Below, piece by piece: positions 12,246 through 49,806 of a stretch of 64,000 bases of DNA (position 1 is its first letter; every line of letters begins with the position of its first letter). A model generated the notes under the pieces. The model was not told the origin of the DNA, made no database searches, and saw only the letters and a program-made list of their open reading frames with translations. Both the position numbers and the translations under genes were made by a program. The stretch comes from Candidatus Gastranaerophilales bacterium (GTDB lineage Bacteria; Cyanobacteriota; Vampirovibrionia; Gastranaerophilales; Gastranaerophilaceae). The DNA lies in assembly GCA_944322855.1 (NCBI GenBank), contig CALUQG010000001.1:1-64000 (forward strand), in the 5' to 3' direction.

Positions 12246-12503
12246 TTAACCTTTTACATCAAATGCCCCGTTTACTTTATCTTTTCTTAAAGCAGCACCG
12301 ACATTAAACATCATGAGGTTATATTTTTCTATTTCATGAGCAACGTTGCCTGTGAAAACATTTTGATTTTCATCAATAAAATTGAATAACGGTTCCCATA
12401 ATCCCGAAACAGCCCCTTGAGCGGATTCTTTTGTCTGTTTTATAGTCCTTGTCGGAACTTTTATATTCATGCCGAAAGGCTGCTTGAAAAAGTTTTCTGC
12501 CAT
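12246..12503 (-). CDS. Small uncharacterised protein
   Basis: 85 residues, soluble, mostly helical by composition, no Cys and no membrane segment. AGGGG about 11 bases before the ATG is a possible ribosome site. No domain recognised. It is convergent with hydA and shares its terminator. Similar short orphans occur at 22.2, 22.6, 22.8 and 47.2 kb in this window. Confidence 0.6.
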   Translation of the reverse strand: MAENFFKQPFGMNIKVPTRTIKQTKESAQGAVSGLWEPLFNFIDENQNVFTGNVAHEIEKYNLMMFNVGAALRKDKVNGAFDVKG

Positions 12504-12888: not shown

Positions 12889-14598
12889 ATGATAAACAAT
12901 GTAACTTTAAACAATCAGGAAGTTTACAGAAGGAATGTAAATGATTATCGAGTTTCAGACGGCAGACAGCAGTCTGCATCCGGTGTTGCGTTTAAAGGTA
13001 TACCTCCTGAAATCATAAATGTGTCAATTATAGATTTAGCAACAGCTATTTTGCCGCGTACATGGGTAGATGCAAAAACTAATGGCTTTGCTGCTGCAGA
13101 AACATTCAGAAGAGAGTCTTCCGGTTTAATCGTGAACTGTTTAATCCCAGGATTTATTGTTTACGGTATGGCCAAGGTTCTTGAACTTTTTAATTCAAAA
13201 GATAAAGGCATGGCAAACAAATGGGCTAATGAAGATGCCATAACTACATTAAACAAGCACTTTCTTGAAGCAAAAGGCGGTTCAAGGGCATTTACAAACA
13301 AACTTCTTTCTGACATCAGTGTATTAAACGGCAGTGATTGGATACCTTTAGATCCTGCAAAACAAAAAGAGAAATTCGGAAAAGTTATTGAAGGATTTTC
13401 TCTGGAAAATGAAAGAAAAGAGTTTGCCGCAACAATGGCAAACAAACTGGCTACAAAGAAAGAAAAAGCAGCTGCTGTAAACAATCTTGAGAAAAAAGTT
13501 TTGCAGATGACAGGCGCTTCAAAACATATTCAAATAGCAGGAAAGACTTATCATGCGGATTTGCATACTCTATTGCGTGATGCAATGGATGTTGGACAAG
13601 ATTTTCTTGAACATAAACGAAATGTTATAAAAGATTACAAAGACAGTTTGAAAAAGCTTTCCGCAGAAGAGCTCAAAAAACTCACACCGGAAGCTAAGTC
13701 GCAGCAAATACTGAACGCAGTAGAAAAAGAACTTGGCAATTATTTCAAAGAATCGAAACGTTTTATCAAAAAGAAAAGTTTCATCGGTCTGGCTATTGTT
13801 ATACCTCTTGCTGCATCAATGCAGTCTATTAACAGATGGATAACAAGAAAATCCTCCGGTCAGGAAGGAGCTCCGATTTATAAAGATTTTGGAACGCAGA
13901 AAAAGAAAAAAGAGATGTCTGCTTCTGAAAAATCTACATTCTTCCTGCATAAACTGGGTGCGGCAGCATTGATGGTTGCAGTAGCTTATGCTTCTTTAAA
14001 AGACAAATCAAGCATTTCAAATATATTGAAAGGTTTGCAGTTTACGAAAAATATGCCGACAATGGATCAGTGCAGATGGATTGCGACATCTACATTTGCA
14101 AGCCGTATGCTGGCATCGGAAGACAAAAATGAACTTCATGAAGTTACCTGGAGAGATATTGCTACATTTGCAAGCTTGTATTTCTTAGGCGATTATGTTG
14201 CAAAAGGTGTAGGCTATATTATACAAAAAGCTACAAAAATTCCGCTTTTGAATTATACTAAGAGTGCCCCGAAAAAATCAAACAATGTAATTGTTGATTT
14301 TGGCAGAAAACTTTCTCACTGGGCAGGAGGAACAGAACTCAAGACATTTGCTGAAGCTGCTAAAGTTTCGCAAAAAGCAAAATACTGGAGATATTTCTGT
14401 GAAGGCAGTTCATTAGGATTTTCAATGCTTATTCTGGGCATGCTTGTTCCATGGTATGTCAGAAAACAGACAGAAAACAAGGTAAGACAGGAAATGCTTG
14501 AAAAGTACAGAAGTTTTCATACTTATCCATCACTAAATTTGACTAGCAACAAAAAAACTTTTCAGGCGTTTGGTATGATGATGGAAAAAACAAAATAA
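12889..14598 (+). CDS. FKG-motif membrane protein, paralogue 1
   Basis: 569 residues, no known domain recognised. A polar, disordered N terminus ends in GVAFKGIPPE (FKG at residues 35-37). Then comes a conserved block LPRTWVDAK...RRESSGLIVN and a hydrophobic segment, a long charged helical region (residues ~100-300), the block SMQSINRWITRKSSGQEG, another membrane segment, the block MPTMDQCRWI...SRMLASEDKNE, more hydrophobic stretches and the C-terminal motif KKTFQAF. The gene 17 bases downstream encodes a protein with every one of these blocks, so they are paralogues forming one operon. No signal peptide. Function unknown; probably an integral membrane protein with large cytoplasmic parts. 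Confidence 0.9.
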   Translation: MINNVTLNNQEVYRRNVNDYRVSDGRQQSASGVAFKGIPPEIINVSIIDLATAILPRTWVDAKTNGFAAAETFRRESSGLIVNCLIPGFIVYGMAKVLELFNSKDKGMANKWANEDAITTLNKHFLEAKGGSRAFTNKLLSDISVLNGSDWIPLDPAKQKEKFGKVIEGFSLENERKEFAATMANKLATKKEKAAAVNNLEKKVLQMTGASKHIQIAGKTYHADLHTLLRDAMDVGQDFLEHKRNVIKDYKDSLKKLSAEELKKLTPEAKSQQILNAVEKELGNYFKESKRFIKKKSFIGLAIVIPLAASMQSINRWITRKSSGQEGAPIYKDFGTQKKKKEMSASEKSTFFLHKLGAAALMVAVAYASLKDKSSISNILKGLQFTKNMPTMDQCRWIATSTFASRMLASEDKNELHEVTWRDIATFASLYFLGDYVAKGVGYIIQKATKIPLLNYTKSAPKKSNNVIVDFGRKLSHWAGGTELKTFAEAAKVSQKAKYWRYFCEGSSLGFSMLILGMLVPWYVRKQTENKVRQEMLEKYRSFHTYPSLNLTSNKKTFQAFGMMMEKTK

Positions 14599-14615
14599 AA
14601 TAAACAGGTAGAAAG

Positions 14616-16391
14616 ATGATATCCCGATTTAATATTACACAACCAAACATACAAACATCACCCCAAAAACAATTTAAAGAAAAAAATAATAATTCAAACC
14701 CGAATTTCAAAGGACTGGTTGACGGACTTGGTACGGCAGCTTTGAATTCATTAAATACAAACCCTGCAGTCGGGGCTTGTTTTGTTGATTTCTTTTCAAT
14801 GGTAATGCCAAGGACGCTGACTGATTTTTCAAGAAGCAAAGATGCCGGCATGGAAACCGGGATCAGAGAATCTTCCGGTACAATAAATCATGCTATGGCC
14901 GGTGTTGTTGGTCTTGCTGCCGGATATGCGGTTTCTTCTGCATTTAATAAATTGACAGGTACTAAAGTTCACTACTTATTCACTGATGACAAAGCTCTTG
15001 ATGTATTCGGTGATTTTATCGGGGCTCATAAAGACGGCAATTTGATAAATTCTCAAGCCTATTTTGAAGACATGTTTAAAAACATGAAGTTCTTAAATAC
15101 AACAACAGATGCATACAAAAATGCTCCTGTAGGTGAGAAAGAAGCTTTCACTGCAATGAAAGATGAGACAGCTAAAAAAGCTGCAGAACTTCTTGCAAAT
15201 GCAAAAACAAAAGCATACAAAACACCAAAAGATATAATGACAGAAATTAAAGAACTAATTGTCGGAGAAAAAGGTGCTTCTGAAGTTGTTGAACTAAAAA
15301 ATCCAAAGACCGGTAAAACAATTGTTGATTCTCTTGAAAATCATATTAATCGTGGATTTTCATTGAAACAGGCATTTGCTGACAAAGTAAAAAATGATGC
15401 AAAAAGACTCGAAAAAGGACTTGATGTTCTGACTGACGCAGAGTATATTAGCAAAATTAAAGTCCTGAAAAAACGTACTGCAGCTCTGGGTCTTGCTGTT
15501 CCTGTAATTGTAGGTATGTCAACCCAGCCGATTAACAGATATTTGACTAAAAAACGTACAGGCTCAGATGGCTTTGTCGGTGTTGAAGGCAGAGAACCTG
15601 ACAAGTCTACTGGTTTTAAGGTAGGAAAGACTGTTCTTGGTATTGCTCTTGGTTCTGCAATGATATCTACTATTCTCAAAAATCCTGCAGAACTATTCAA
15701 ACCTTCTACTTTTACAAAGGCCGTAAAAGAAATTGGTTCTGCACTGCAATATAGAGGTATTATTCCGACAATGGACCAGTTTAAATTCATTTACGGTATG
15801 ACTATTATGAGCAGATTATTTGCTGTCAGAGACAAGAATGAAATGAGAGAATCTACAATCAAAGATACTCTCGGGTTTGCAAACTGGTTGATTTTGGGCG
15901 GTTTTGTTTCAAAAATTGCTGCCAGACTCTTTAATATGGATACTTTGAATTATGATGACACTCATCTTGACAAATCTACTTTGTGGAAAAAGATTAAAAA
16001 CAGTGCCATCTTCAAAGGTACGGAAAAATCTCATGAAGAAATTATCTTCCCTGCATTAAAAGAACTCGGTATTGACATAAAAGATGAAAACGGAAAAGTT
16101 AGATCGTTCAGAAAGCTTGTTGCAGAGCTTAAAAAGCAGAAAACTAATGCAATTGCTCAAAAAGCTTTGAAACAGTTGAGAGTGAAAAACTATCAGCAAT
16201 TAATAGGTTATGTATATTCAGGACTCGTACTCGGGCTTGGTATTGCGAAACTCAATATTGCAATTACAAATCATGTTGAAGGGAAGAATAAGAAAAAACT
16301 TCCTGCAGACAAAATGAAAGTTAACAATGAATTTATTAAGCTTTCACAGCAGGATAACAAGACTTTTGGTGCTTTCCTTAATCAGATATAA
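14616..16391 (+). CDS. FKG-motif membrane protein, paralogue 2
   Basis: 591 residues, homologous end to end to the gene before it. Shared blocks: NPNFKGLVDG (FKG at 31-33), MPRTLTDFSR...IRESSGTINH, STQPINRYLTKKRTGSDG, IPTMDQFKFI...SRLFAVRDKNEMRES and C-terminal DNKTFGAF. Between blocks the sequences differ greatly, mainly in the charged middle (residues ~120-290). Several glycine-rich hydrophobic helices (HAMAGVVGLAAGYAVSSAF, AALGLAVPVIVGM, VGKTVLGIALGSAMI) suggest a multi-pass protein. AGGTAGAAAG precedes the ATG. Co-transcribed with paralogue 1; the two may form a hetero-oligomer (inference). Confidence 0.9.
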   Translation: MISRFNITQPNIQTSPQKQFKEKNNNSNPNFKGLVDGLGTAALNSLNTNPAVGACFVDFFSMVMPRTLTDFSRSKDAGMETGIRESSGTINHAMAGVVGLAAGYAVSSAFNKLTGTKVHYLFTDDKALDVFGDFIGAHKDGNLINSQAYFEDMFKNMKFLNTTTDAYKNAPVGEKEAFTAMKDETAKKAAELLANAKTKAYKTPKDIMTEIKELIVGEKGASEVVELKNPKTGKTIVDSLENHINRGFSLKQAFADKVKNDAKRLEKGLDVLTDAEYISKIKVLKKRTAALGLAVPVIVGMSTQPINRYLTKKRTGSDGFVGVEGREPDKSTGFKVGKTVLGIALGSAMISTILKNPAELFKPSTFTKAVKEIGSALQYRGIIPTMDQFKFIYGMTIMSRLFAVRDKNEMRESTIKDTLGFANWLILGGFVSKIAARLFNMDTLNYDDTHLDKSTLWKKIKNSAIFKGTEKSHEEIIFPALKELGIDIKDENGKVRSFRKLVAELKKQKTNAIAQKALKQLRVKNYQQLIGYVYSGLVLGLGIAKLNIAITNHVEGKNKKKLPADKMKVNNEFIKLSQQDNKTFGAFLNQI

Positions 16392-16516: not shown

Positions 16517-16547
16517 TCACATGAAAAATAAAGAAAAGGTTAGCAAA

Positions 16548-17282
16548 ATGGCAGAAAACAAACTCCCATCAGGTGTAGGTAAAAAAATTGTAGAAGCTTT
16601 GAAAAAACAGGCAGAAATTGAAATACAGCCTATTCCTGAACCGATTGAGCCGCAGGTTTCAGCTCCAAGAGAAGCACAGCCGGTTTCTTCACCTTCACAA
16701 GAATTGTATACAGGCGGAATTACTGACAATATTAGTCTTGATGACAATTTTTCTGATTTTTCAGTGCCTGAAAATAATGACGCTGATGATTTTTCCGGAT
16801 TTGGCGAAGAAACAGTAAATGAATCTTCACTCACAGATGATTTGAGTTCAGGTTTTGGAGAGAGTTTTGCTGCAGGTTTGAATTTTGAAGAAACGAGTAC
16901 ACCAATGTTTGAAGAAAAAGAAATATTTAACTCAACTCCGGCAATAAAAGGGGTTCCACCTCAGAAGTCATATGCAATGCCGGCTAATGTAGCAGTGTTA
17001 AAAAGACTTATAATGCAGCTGCCTCAAGGTGTTACAAAACAAACAGGCGCTCAGATTATAAGACAGACAATGGAAGCCCTTGGTATTTCCATGAACAGTG
17101 TATTGAAAGAAGCTCAGCAAGGCCAGGACAGCCTTACTGCTTCTGCAAAAGCCTGCATGGCTACAATCGCTGAATATCAAAGCAATATAAAAACCCTTGA
17201 AAAACAGGTTCAGGACTATAAAAAACAGGCTATTGCTTTAAATGACTTAATCAGCTTGTTTGTTATGACTGATAAACATTAA
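16548..17282 (+). CDS. Acidic protein with C-terminal helical domain
   Basis: 244 residues from the ATG supported by both promoter and ribosome site. Layout: a short basic helix (GVGKKIVEALKKQAE), a Pro/Glu/Ser/Asp-rich, probably disordered, acidic stretch (residues ~28-140), and a conserved-looking helical domain (ANVAVLKRLIMQLPQGVTKQ, TGAQIIRQTMEALGIS) ending in a coiled coil (EYQSNIKTLEKQVQDYKKQA). No Cys-pair, signal peptide or membrane helix. Follows the FKG pair by ~150 bases but has its own promoter. Function unknown; an adaptor or scaffold protein would fit the layout. Confidence 0.8.
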   Translation: MAENKLPSGVGKKIVEALKKQAEIEIQPIPEPIEPQVSAPREAQPVSSPSQELYTGGITDNISLDDNFSDFSVPENNDADDFSGFGEETVNESSLTDDLSSGFGESFAAGLNFEETSTPMFEEKEIFNSTPAIKGVPPQKSYAMPANVAVLKRLIMQLPQGVTKQTGAQIIRQTMEALGISMNSVLKEAQQGQDSLTASAKACMATIAEYQSNIKTLEKQVQDYKKQAIALNDLISLFVMTDKH

Positions 17283-39523: not shown

Positions 39524-40315
39524 TTACCAGTTGTAGGGTACAACAGCTCTCGGACTTGCCGGTCTTGGCAGACCTTCTTCGTCATAATAGCGTGCAAATT
39601 TTTGTTCTTCTTTTTCGCCATCACTGTATTCAAAGTATTTTTCAGTGTGGCTTGCTTTGGCTTGAAGCATATTATTGAACAGAATGTAAGTTTCTTCTAC
39701 AGCTCTTTCACCGTTTCTGTCATCGATAAATTGATATTTAACAACATAATCGTTTTCATTTTTTCTGGAAGGGCGAATTTCCATTCTTTCAATTGCATCC
39801 TCTGGCGATGATTTGATTATTTCGGCTGCGGCTGAAATCAGGTCATGAGTCTTTCTGTCATATTTTACATCATAATGTACACCTTCTCTGTCATATGAGA
39901 TAAGACTCATTTTTTCATTTGATGTTGCTGTAAAATTTGAAACTTTTGATTTTTCGCTTTTCTTTCTTTTTATTGCGTTTACAAAATCCATTTCGTTTCC
40001 GTAGAATTCAATATTTTTGTCTTTTGTTGTCCAGGCGAATTTGCTCATTGCTAATTTTTCATTATTGTTTTCTTTTGCATGAGTTTCAAAGAAATTTGTG
40101 ATATAAGAAGCATTTTCATCTTCGTATGTTTTGTTCAGTAAACCAAAACTGTTGCATATATTTTCTTCATCATCAACGTAATTTCCGCTGAAAGAAACTG
40201 TGTCAGGCGGCAGAGGTTTCGTTTCTATTGGCTTAGAAGCTGGAGGAGTCTGCGGATTTTGATTTGTGGTGTAAACTTTTCCGAAAAAAGATGGGGATAA
40301 ACTTAAAATCTTCAT
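39524..40315 (-). CDS. FxG-motif orphan protein
   Basis: 263 residues. Polar Pro-rich N terminus (PQTPPASKPIETKPLPP) then DTVSFSGNYVDDEE, where FSG (42-44) sits at nearly the same position as FKG in the 12.9-16.4 kb paralogues. The rest is charged, mixed alpha/beta, without membrane segments or Cys beyond one, ending PRAVVPYNW. No known domain. Convergent with the antiporter gene (11 bases apart). Confidence 0.75.
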   Translation of the reverse strand: MKILSLSPSFFGKVYTTNQNPQTPPASKPIETKPLPPDTVSFSGNYVDDEENICNSFGLLNKTYEDENASYITNFFETHAKENNNEKLAMSKFAWTTKDKNIEFYGNEMDFVNAIKRKKSEKSKVSNFTATSNEKMSLISYDREGVHYDVKYDRKTHDLISAAAEIIKSSPEDAIERMEIRPSRKNENDYVVKYQFIDDRNGERAVEETYILFNNMLQAKASHTEKYFEYSDGEKEEQKFARYYDEEGLPRPASPRAVVPYNW

Positions 40316-47703: not shown

Positions 47704-49806
47704 ATGAATCTTGGTGCATTAAGCAGCTTACTAAAAAATAACGATATAATAATGGCAATCGGTATTGTCATAATTGTCGCAATGATGATTATACCGTTGC
47801 CTCCGATGCTTCTTGACATCCTTTTGACATTGAATATTTCTCTTTCCGTAATCATTCTTCTTGTGTGTTTGTTTATAAAAGAGCCTCTGGAGTATAGCTC
47901 TTTCCCGATTATACTTCTTGTAGCTACGATTTTTCGTCTGGGCTTAAACGTAAGTTCTACAAGATTAATATTGCTGCATGGGGCTGCTGGTGAGGTTATA
48001 AATTCTTTCGGGCAATTTGTTGTCGGGGGGAATTATATAGTAGGTTTTATCATATTTATCCTGCTTGTAGTAATTAACTTTATGGTAATCACAGGCGGTG
48101 CAACGAGAGTTGCAGAAGTTTCAGCAAGGTTCACTTTGGATTCAATGCCTGGAAAACAGCTTTCTATTGATGCGGATTTAAATTCAGGATTAATTAATGA
48201 GGAGCAGGCAAAGGCAAGAAGAAGAAAATTGGAAAGAGAAGCTGATTTCTACGGTACTATGGACGGTGCTTCAAAGTTTGTAAAAGGTGACGCAACGGCC
48301 GGTATTATTATTACTGTTGTAAATATTTTTGCCGGAATTGTCATAGGCCTTTGGCAGTTAAAAATGGATATTATGACAGCCCTGAGCACATTCACGATTT
48401 TGACTGTCGGTGATGGCCTTGTTTCACAGCTTCCGGCATTGCTGATATCTTTCTCAACCGGTTTGATTGTTTCCCGTGCAAGCGGTCAGGATGATTCTTT
48501 GAGTGATGACATTAAAAAAGAAATGTTTTCAAATCCGATTGTTCTTGCCATTGTATCTGTGTTGTTGTTTCTTCTCGGTATGATACCCGGTATGCCGACT
48601 GTGCCGTTTATTGCTGTATCACTAGGTATAGGCTGGCTTGCTTTTAGTAAAAACAAGGCTCAAGAAACTAAAAAAGCAGAAGAAATAAAAGCTCAAGAAG
48701 AAGCGCAAAAGCAGGAAGGCAGTCTTGCAAAAGTCGGAAAAACAAAGAAAAAAGCTACAAGAGAAAGTGTTATGGAACTTTTGAATGTAGAAACAATAGA
48801 AATGGAAATAGGTTACAGACTTGTGCCGCTGCTTGATGTTGAGCAAGGTGGTGATTTGCTTGAAAGAATAGCACAAATAAGACGTCAGACCGCTCTTGAT
48901 TTGGGTATTGTTTTGCCGTCAATAAGAGTCAGAGACAATTTGCAGCTGCCTCCAAACAACTATCAAATAAAACTCAAGGGTGTACCTATTGAATCAGGTG
49001 AAGTTTATCCCGACAGAAATCTTGCTATGAATTCCGGAGGTTCTGACAATGACCTGAGTATTAACGGTATCAGCGCAATAGAACCGGCTTTTGGACTACC
49101 TGCAATATGGGTGGATGACAAGGATAAAGAAATTGCAGAAACATACGGTTACACTGTTGTCAGCCCTTCTGCCGTTATTTCCACTCACTTAACGGAAGTT
49201 ATCAAAAAGAACGCTGCAGAAATAGTTTCGAGAGCTGATATTCAGCAGCTTATTGACAACCTGAAAAAAGAAGTTTCTGAAGAATATGTATCTGATTTGA
49301 TGAAAGATATTACAGTTGCTGAAGTTCAGCAGATTATTTATAATCTTTTGAAAGAAAGAGTTTCTGTACGTGACTTAAAAACTATTCTTGAAGTCTTGAG
49401 TCTTCAATCTCGTGTCAGCAAAAATGCTGATTACCTTACAGAACAGGTCAGACAGGCACTTTCTCGCAGTATTTGCAAACAAAACCTTGCTGATACAGGA
49501 GAACTTCTCGCTGTTACTCTTGCTCCGGAGGTGGAAAATACAATTGCTCAGGGTGTAAGCCCTGATGGTACAAGCTTGACTCTTGATCCTGAGTTTACAA
49601 GAAAGCTTATGGATAATCTTAATTATGAGCTGGAAAAAGCAATTACTTCATCAGGAAATCAGCCTGTTCTTTTATGCTCTTCTCCTATAAGACTTCCTTT
49701 CAGAAGACTCATCGAAAGAACGTATCCACAAATTGCCGTTATGTCGTATAATGAAATCAGCAACAATGTAAAAGCAAAGTCTATCGGAGTTGTGAAAGTT
49801 GTTTAA
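47704..49806 (+). CDS. flhA: Flagellar export gate protein FlhA
   Basis: 700 residues. N-terminal eight-helix membrane domain with the FHIPEP-family signature (RLGLNVSSTRLIL, GATRVAEVSARFTLDSMPGK, SIDADLNSGLINEEQAKARR) and a cytoplasmic four-subdomain C terminus that docks chaperone-substrate complexes (AIWVDDKDKEIAETYGYTVV, LVSR-like helices, QPVLLCSSPIRLPFRRLIER). Forms the nonameric ring of the flagellar type III exporter. Proton-driven export of flagellin at 21 kb depends on it. Heads a contiguous five-gene + strand cluster; no strong ribosome site seen. Confidence 0.97.
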   Translation: MNLGALSSLLKNNDIIMAIGIVIIVAMMIIPLPPMLLDILLTLNISLSVIILLVCLFIKEPLEYSSFPIILLVATIFRLGLNVSSTRLILLHGAAGEVINSFGQFVVGGNYIVGFIIFILLVVINFMVITGGATRVAEVSARFTLDSMPGKQLSIDADLNSGLINEEQAKARRRKLEREADFYGTMDGASKFVKGDATAGIIITVVNIFAGIVIGLWQLKMDIMTALSTFTILTVGDGLVSQLPALLISFSTGLIVSRASGQDDSLSDDIKKEMFSNPIVLAIVSVLLFLLGMIPGMPTVPFIAVSLGIGWLAFSKNKAQETKKAEEIKAQEEAQKQEGSLAKVGKTKKKATRESVMELLNVETIEMEIGYRLVPLLDVEQGGDLLERIAQIRRQTALDLGIVLPSIRVRDNLQLPPNNYQIKLKGVPIESGEVYPDRNLAMNSGGSDNDLSINGISAIEPAFGLPAIWVDDKDKEIAETYGYTVVSPSAVISTHLTEVIKKNAAEIVSRADIQQLIDNLKKEVSEEYVSDLMKDITVAEVQQIIYNLLKERVSVRDLKTILEVLSLQSRVSKNADYLTEQVRQALSRSICKQNLADTGELLAVTLAPEVENTIAQGVSPDGTSLTLDPEFTRKLMDNLNYELEKAITSSGNQPVLLCSSPIRLPFRRLIERTYPQIAVMSYNEISNNVKAKSIGVVKVV

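Follow-up and report, generated by a model that had tools for sequence, protein, structure and literature searches.

The A/B gene pair and its sequence motifs

The window, a stretch of 64,000 nucleotides, derives from the genome of a gut bacterium assigned to Candidatus Gastranaerophilales, a non-photosynthetic relative of cyanobacteria. It contains two adjoining, co-directional genes, designated A and B, separated by a gap of 17 bp. The original prediction described two neighboring proteins of about 580 residues with common sequence blocks, and every one of the named blocks (FKG, PRT-x-x-D...RESSG, INR-x-x-T-[RK]-K-x-[ST]-G, PTMDQ...SR...DKNE, and K-T-F-x-A-F) is indeed present in both open reading frames:

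12889..14598, + strand: gene A, 569 residues, likely a membrane protein with two modules, A clade (open reading frame, translation, homologues, tree)
12991..12999, + strand: A, FKG motif at the end of the N-terminal tail, residues 35-37 (F invariant, G in 76% of 37 sequences)
13054..13125, + strand: A, module-1 motif alpha, PRTxxD...ETxRRESSG, residues 56-79 (37-sequence alignment)
13828..13860, + strand: A, module-1 motif beta, INRWITRKSSG, residues 314-324 (37-sequence alignment)
14056..14142, + strand: A, module-2 motif alpha', PTMDQ...SR...DKNELHE, with the block up to DKNE at residues 390-415 (alignment; profile-profile match to module-1 alpha)
14422..14472, + strand: A, module-2 motif beta', conserved LG...P helix ending at T528 (alignment; colinear second profile-profile match)
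14554..14571, + strand: A, C-terminal KTFQAF, residues 556-561 (translation)
14616..16391, + strand: gene B, 591 residues, likely a membrane protein with two modules, B clade (open reading frame, translation, homologues, tree, AlphaFold)
14706..14714, + strand: B, FKG motif, residues 31-33 (translation)
14808..14879, + strand: B, module-1 motif alpha, PRTLTD...ETGIRESSG, residues 65-88 (37-sequence alignment)
15531..15563, + strand: B, module-1 motif beta, INRYLTKKRTG, residues 306-316 (37-sequence alignment)
15765..15851, + strand: B, module-2 motif alpha', PTMDQ...SR...RDKNEMRE, with the block up to DKNE at residues 384-409 (alignment; profile-profile match)
16218..16268, + strand: B, module-2 motif beta', SGLVLGLGIAKLNIAIT (alignment; profile-profile match)
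16359..16376, + strand: B, C-terminal KTFGAF, residues 582-587 (translation)

A whole-genome search with A matched B at E 1.2e-16, demonstrating homology beyond chance. In a non-redundant alignment of 37 sequences, the conserved columns comprise the blocks above and an LG...P/N...T helix near the C-terminus, with the residues F, D, P, E, R, E, N, R, D, G, K, and L being invariant. Comparison of B with its 82%-identical orthologue gave pN 0.12 and pS 0.73, and of A with its 77%-identical orthologue pN 0.16 and pS 0.68; by these values, we judge both genes to be under purifying selection. Upstream of A, several genomes of the genus conserve at this place a small open reading frame of 85 residues (12246-12503, - strand), which has no family match.

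Neither protein could be assigned to a known family, in agreement with the earlier statement that none could be named. With the curated cut-off as the criterion for Pfam and NCBIfam membership and a significant E-value for PHROGs and PADLOC, the best Pfam match reached 17.2 bits against a cut-off of 23.2 (Sld7_C), the best NCBIfam match 16.9 against 135, and the best PHROGs match an insignificant E of 0.015, while PADLOC returned nothing for A or B. The PDB sequences gave no match with single proteins or with a 30-member profile, a Pfam scan of 30 family members identified no consistent family, and a search of the literature library found no paper on proteins of this type. We call the family new because it is absent from the libraries searched; "categorically new" is to be read here as a protein family without relatives in these libraries, the novelty of its mechanism being a separate matter.

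A viral origin was rejected, as no fold match in the viral library reached E <= 0.001 with the weak models available, and a viral-contig scan made only with the neighboring hydrogenase found nothing. We also discarded a flagellar link, because FlhA occurs in 21 of 21 tested genomes with or without A/B. The genome itself encodes two full-length FlhA/FHIPEP proteins, one in the window (47704-49806) and one on contig C4 (96.7-98.7 kb), and many of the tested relatives share this state; the second FlhA possibly belongs to another export apparatus, in addition to that of the flagellum.

Internal duplication and shuffled modules

That A and B each originated by internal duplication, with two homologous modules per chain, is well supported by profile comparisons. 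Made without the permuted members, in which the modules are swapped, the comparison of module-1 and module-2 profiles gave a score of 39.5 (P 8e-5) over two colinear stretches, and none of eight reversed or block-shuffled control profiles scored above 28.8. The matched stretches pair RN..E..RE..SG with RDKNE.RE..RD, and QPINRYLTKK with IPKLNIAITK. When only the core sequences were used, the halves compared at a probability of 15% versus 23% for the reversed control, and the match became significant only after the split genes described below had been added. The swapped proteins bridge the two modules, as the two unit profiles match them at identical residues; the best such matches, to L061, reached 5e-8 and 1e-6, compared with 1e-5 for reversed decoys.

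Each module opens with a short tail that ends in F-x-G. A hydrophobic segment leads into the conserved charged motif R(x)n-R-[ND]-x-x-E-x-x-[RK]-[RE]-E; another hydrophobic helix comes next, then a soluble insert whose length varies, and finally a hydrophobic helix that closes with P/Q-x-x-N-x-x-x-T. In the families f9 and f15, the modules are encoded as separate neighboring genes, typically overlapping by 4 bp and translationally coupled. The genome under study holds such a split module pair (L088, contig C1, 174.7-176.9 kb), a protein with its halves in swapped order (L089, contig C18, 33.7-35.5 kb), and two more divergent members of the superfamily (L090, C5, 82.2-83.6 kb; L149, C6, 7.8-9.0 kb). 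The fixed islands in A and B had been proposed to mark an interface or active site. Their conservation holds in the alignment of 37 sequences, but they do not simply mark an interface between two partners; they form the signature of the module, which is present twice in each protein.

The split modules carry FKG-like tails too, and unrelated proteins perhaps do as well. We observed tails ending in [PVI]-[STN]-F-[KGS]-[GA] on apparently unrelated proteins at 39524-40315 (- strand) in the window and at L113:14122-15510, L126:6891-7229, and L127:4026-5573. A first sample of open reading frames contained 14 such tails versus 4.7 expected, and a second 7 versus 3.9 expected, a marginal result, as 42 of 500 shuffles were equally high. 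The tail is possibly an N-terminal tag used throughout the lineage.

Distribution, age, and genomic context

Relatives of B were found in 55 of 59 near genomes. Among named records, proteins 49-81% identical to B come mostly from metagenome assemblies of Candidatus Gastranaerophilales. The profile search extended the family to 204 of the 289 genomes of the class Vampirovibrionia, confirming the expectation that the blocks are kept in other genomes; the weaker matches, with E-values of about 1e-13 to 1e-24, correspond to f9 and f15, which lie outside the order. Beyond the class, 386 genomes sampled across the phylum yielded zero matches. A and B probably represent an undescribed membrane superfamily restricted to Vampirovibrionia. 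Within the class, A/B have been lost in some genera, mainly g39, which retain only remote relatives.

The midpoint-rooted tree separates A and B into two clades with a split support of 97/95, each clade including members from the families f1, f6, and f7. Because these families occur on both sides of the split, the duplication is old, with both copies usually kept and mostly together; on this phylogeny, the pair arose by an ancient tandem duplication, and its split predates the divergence of f1, f6, and f7. Among 36 f1 genomes, 34 contained a match, of which 30 carried an adjoining co-directional pair, and the same A-B order and adjacency were seen in f6. The four f1 exceptions are G025 and G032, where B has no A beside it, G029, where one copy is broken over two reading frames, and G033, where the copies are unlinked.

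The genes surrounding the pair, which were named by inspection and without a family search in the other genera, differ from genus to genus: a hydrogenase and an epimerase are located next to it here, and rsmE-cca and other conserved clusters elsewhere. Such variable neighbors suggest no pathway. Many genomes of the genus have the gene at 16521-17282 (+ strand) behind B, and initially it appeared to be missing exactly where A/B are missing (G012 and G038). It was rejected as a partner, as it is present in all 18 tested genomes without A/B and resides on other contigs in several genomes with A/B. Its product occurs across the order, is strongly conserved over the last 100 residues, and matches no family.

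More informative is the context of a swapped-module relative in genus g39, most of whose genomes lack A/B. In 13 of 13 inspected genomes, its gene lies in a four-gene operon, behind two genes for PlsC-like acyltransferases and ahead of one for an HD hydrolase (L153:4775-8371, L154:6101-9771, L155:3750-7260, and L128-L139), and an OmpH-like gene is located divergently to it. In the genus of the window, the orthologue of this relative has a TPR neighbor instead. In one case, an additional HD domain is fused to the C-terminus of the swapped-module relative (L107:7785-9755, genome G247, contig C14; Pfam E 8.8e-19), and by eye this domain lacks the GYP motif. The Pfam scan detected no HD domain in A or B, the fusion being found only in L107. 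This context, which is that of remote relatives and not of A/B themselves, points to a putative role of the superfamily either with membrane lipids or in nucleotide signaling, and such a role may extend to A and B.

Two enzyme types are relevant for comparison. HD and HD-GYP phosphohydrolases (HD, PF01966; HD_5, PF13487) are fused to or adjoin a permuted relative, whereas A and B have neither such a domain nor such a neighbor. The PlsC-type 1-acylglycerol-3-phosphate acyltransferases (PF01553) precede the module gene of g39 in two copies and are not homologous to A or B.

Likely membrane character and possible roles of the pair

The original description as membrane proteins is likely correct, although marginally so. 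Each protein contains five to six moderately hydrophobic segments, which on a hydropathy scale calibrated with proteins of the window lie above nearly all segments of soluble proteins and below those of FlhA and of the antiporter. This character is maintained in 37 diverged sequences, with the first and fifth segments being weak. The number of membrane passes may range from five to seven, given the weak first segment of each module and a fourth segment that is not seen in the split genes. A cytoplasmic C-terminus is favored by the higher density of positive charge on the side that holds the motif loops and this terminus, and it agrees with the one relative whose C-terminus carries an HD domain. 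The AlphaFold models, calculated from alignments of 11 (B) and 10 (A) sequences, are helical with a better-ordered insert at about residues 120-290 of B (pLDDT 64 and pTM 0.61 for B; pLDDT 51 for A). Fold searches of the PDB with these weak models gave nothing significant or interpretable, with a best Foldseek E of 1.2 and a best VIA Z of 4.7.

The marginal hydrophobicity, particularly of the first and fifth segments, could also be explained if A and B were soluble or peripheral helical scaffold proteins. We regard this as improbable, because four to five segments per protein exceed a level that soluble proteins of the window reach at most once, and because their character persists over the 37 diverged sequences. 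If A and B are integral to the membrane, they might instead be remote members of a known superfamily of transporters with duplicated halves, beyond the reach of profile searches. Homologous halves, charges near hydrophobic helices, and 3+1+3-type arrangements are common among transporters, and A and B show two homologous halves, which in the superfamily occur fused, split, or permuted, with charged residues beside or within hydrophobic helices and a possible 3+1+3 arrangement of segments. SWEET and PQ-loop carriers, considered for their architecture only and from general knowledge, likewise contain two homologous helical modules per chain and have single-module genes among their relatives. However, A and B share no sequence match with them, bear other motifs, are about twice the size, and hold a soluble insert of 150 residues between the helices of each module; no solved carrier of this type appeared among the sequence and fold matches listed, the confidence of the models being low. 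For small carriers, an insert of this length and so weak a first hydrophobic segment are unusual. With no match in sequence, and none in fold for models of such low confidence, we consider a transporter origin rather unlikely.

How A and B relate to each other is less clear-cut. The old duplication with its usual linkage suggests a joint function, and the heteromeric complex suggested originally is plausible. The two partners are not always retained together, however: G025 and G032 have B with no adjoining A, the two genes are unlinked in G033 and G046, and single relatives occur elsewhere, for example in G040. The lone, unlinked, and single genes would be expected if A and B were independent paralogues, each a monomer or homo-oligomer, with their adjacency reflecting tandem duplication and shared transcription rather than a two-component complex. 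This has a considerable chance of being right, somewhat short of even, whereas the preservation of order and adjacency over f1 and f6 despite the old split favors a partnership. A different function would follow if A and B were the membrane-bound input or scaffold of a signaling system, their modules sensing or anchoring and a separate cytoplasmic enzyme, such as an HD hydrolase, providing the output. Such an arrangement could account for the fixed charged motifs beside variable soluble inserts, and for the HD domain that is fused to a permuted relative and encoded next to it in every inspected g39 genome; yet no HD or other output domain lies near A/B, and the two acyltransferases of the g39 operon fit lipid handling equally well. 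We think a signaling role doubtful.

The account that we favor, at slightly under even confidence, is that A and B are inner-membrane units of duplicated modules acting together on a constituent of the envelope. Both proteins would likely reside in the inner membrane with five to seven membrane segments and a cytoplasmic C-terminus, and the two modules of each chain would pack as a pseudo-symmetric unit. Co-expressed A and B would usually assemble into a four-module complex, which may handle or organize a membrane constituent, most plausibly a lipid or another envelope component. In its boldest form, which we hold only as a long shot, one duplicated module has been fused, split, and swapped within a class-confined superfamily to give at least six proteins in each small genome, and the A/B heteromer is the core of an envelope-lipid machine that is specific to the lineage and resembles none described.

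The occurrence of the module in fused, split, and swapped arrangements represents a natural experiment on the evolution of duplicated membrane proteins. Members of the Gastranaerophilales are common in the gut, few of them have been cultured, and little is known of the biology of their cell envelope. A family that most of their genomes encode, in several divergent copies per 2-Mb genome and without catalogued relatives, is a candidate for a distinguishing feature of the class.
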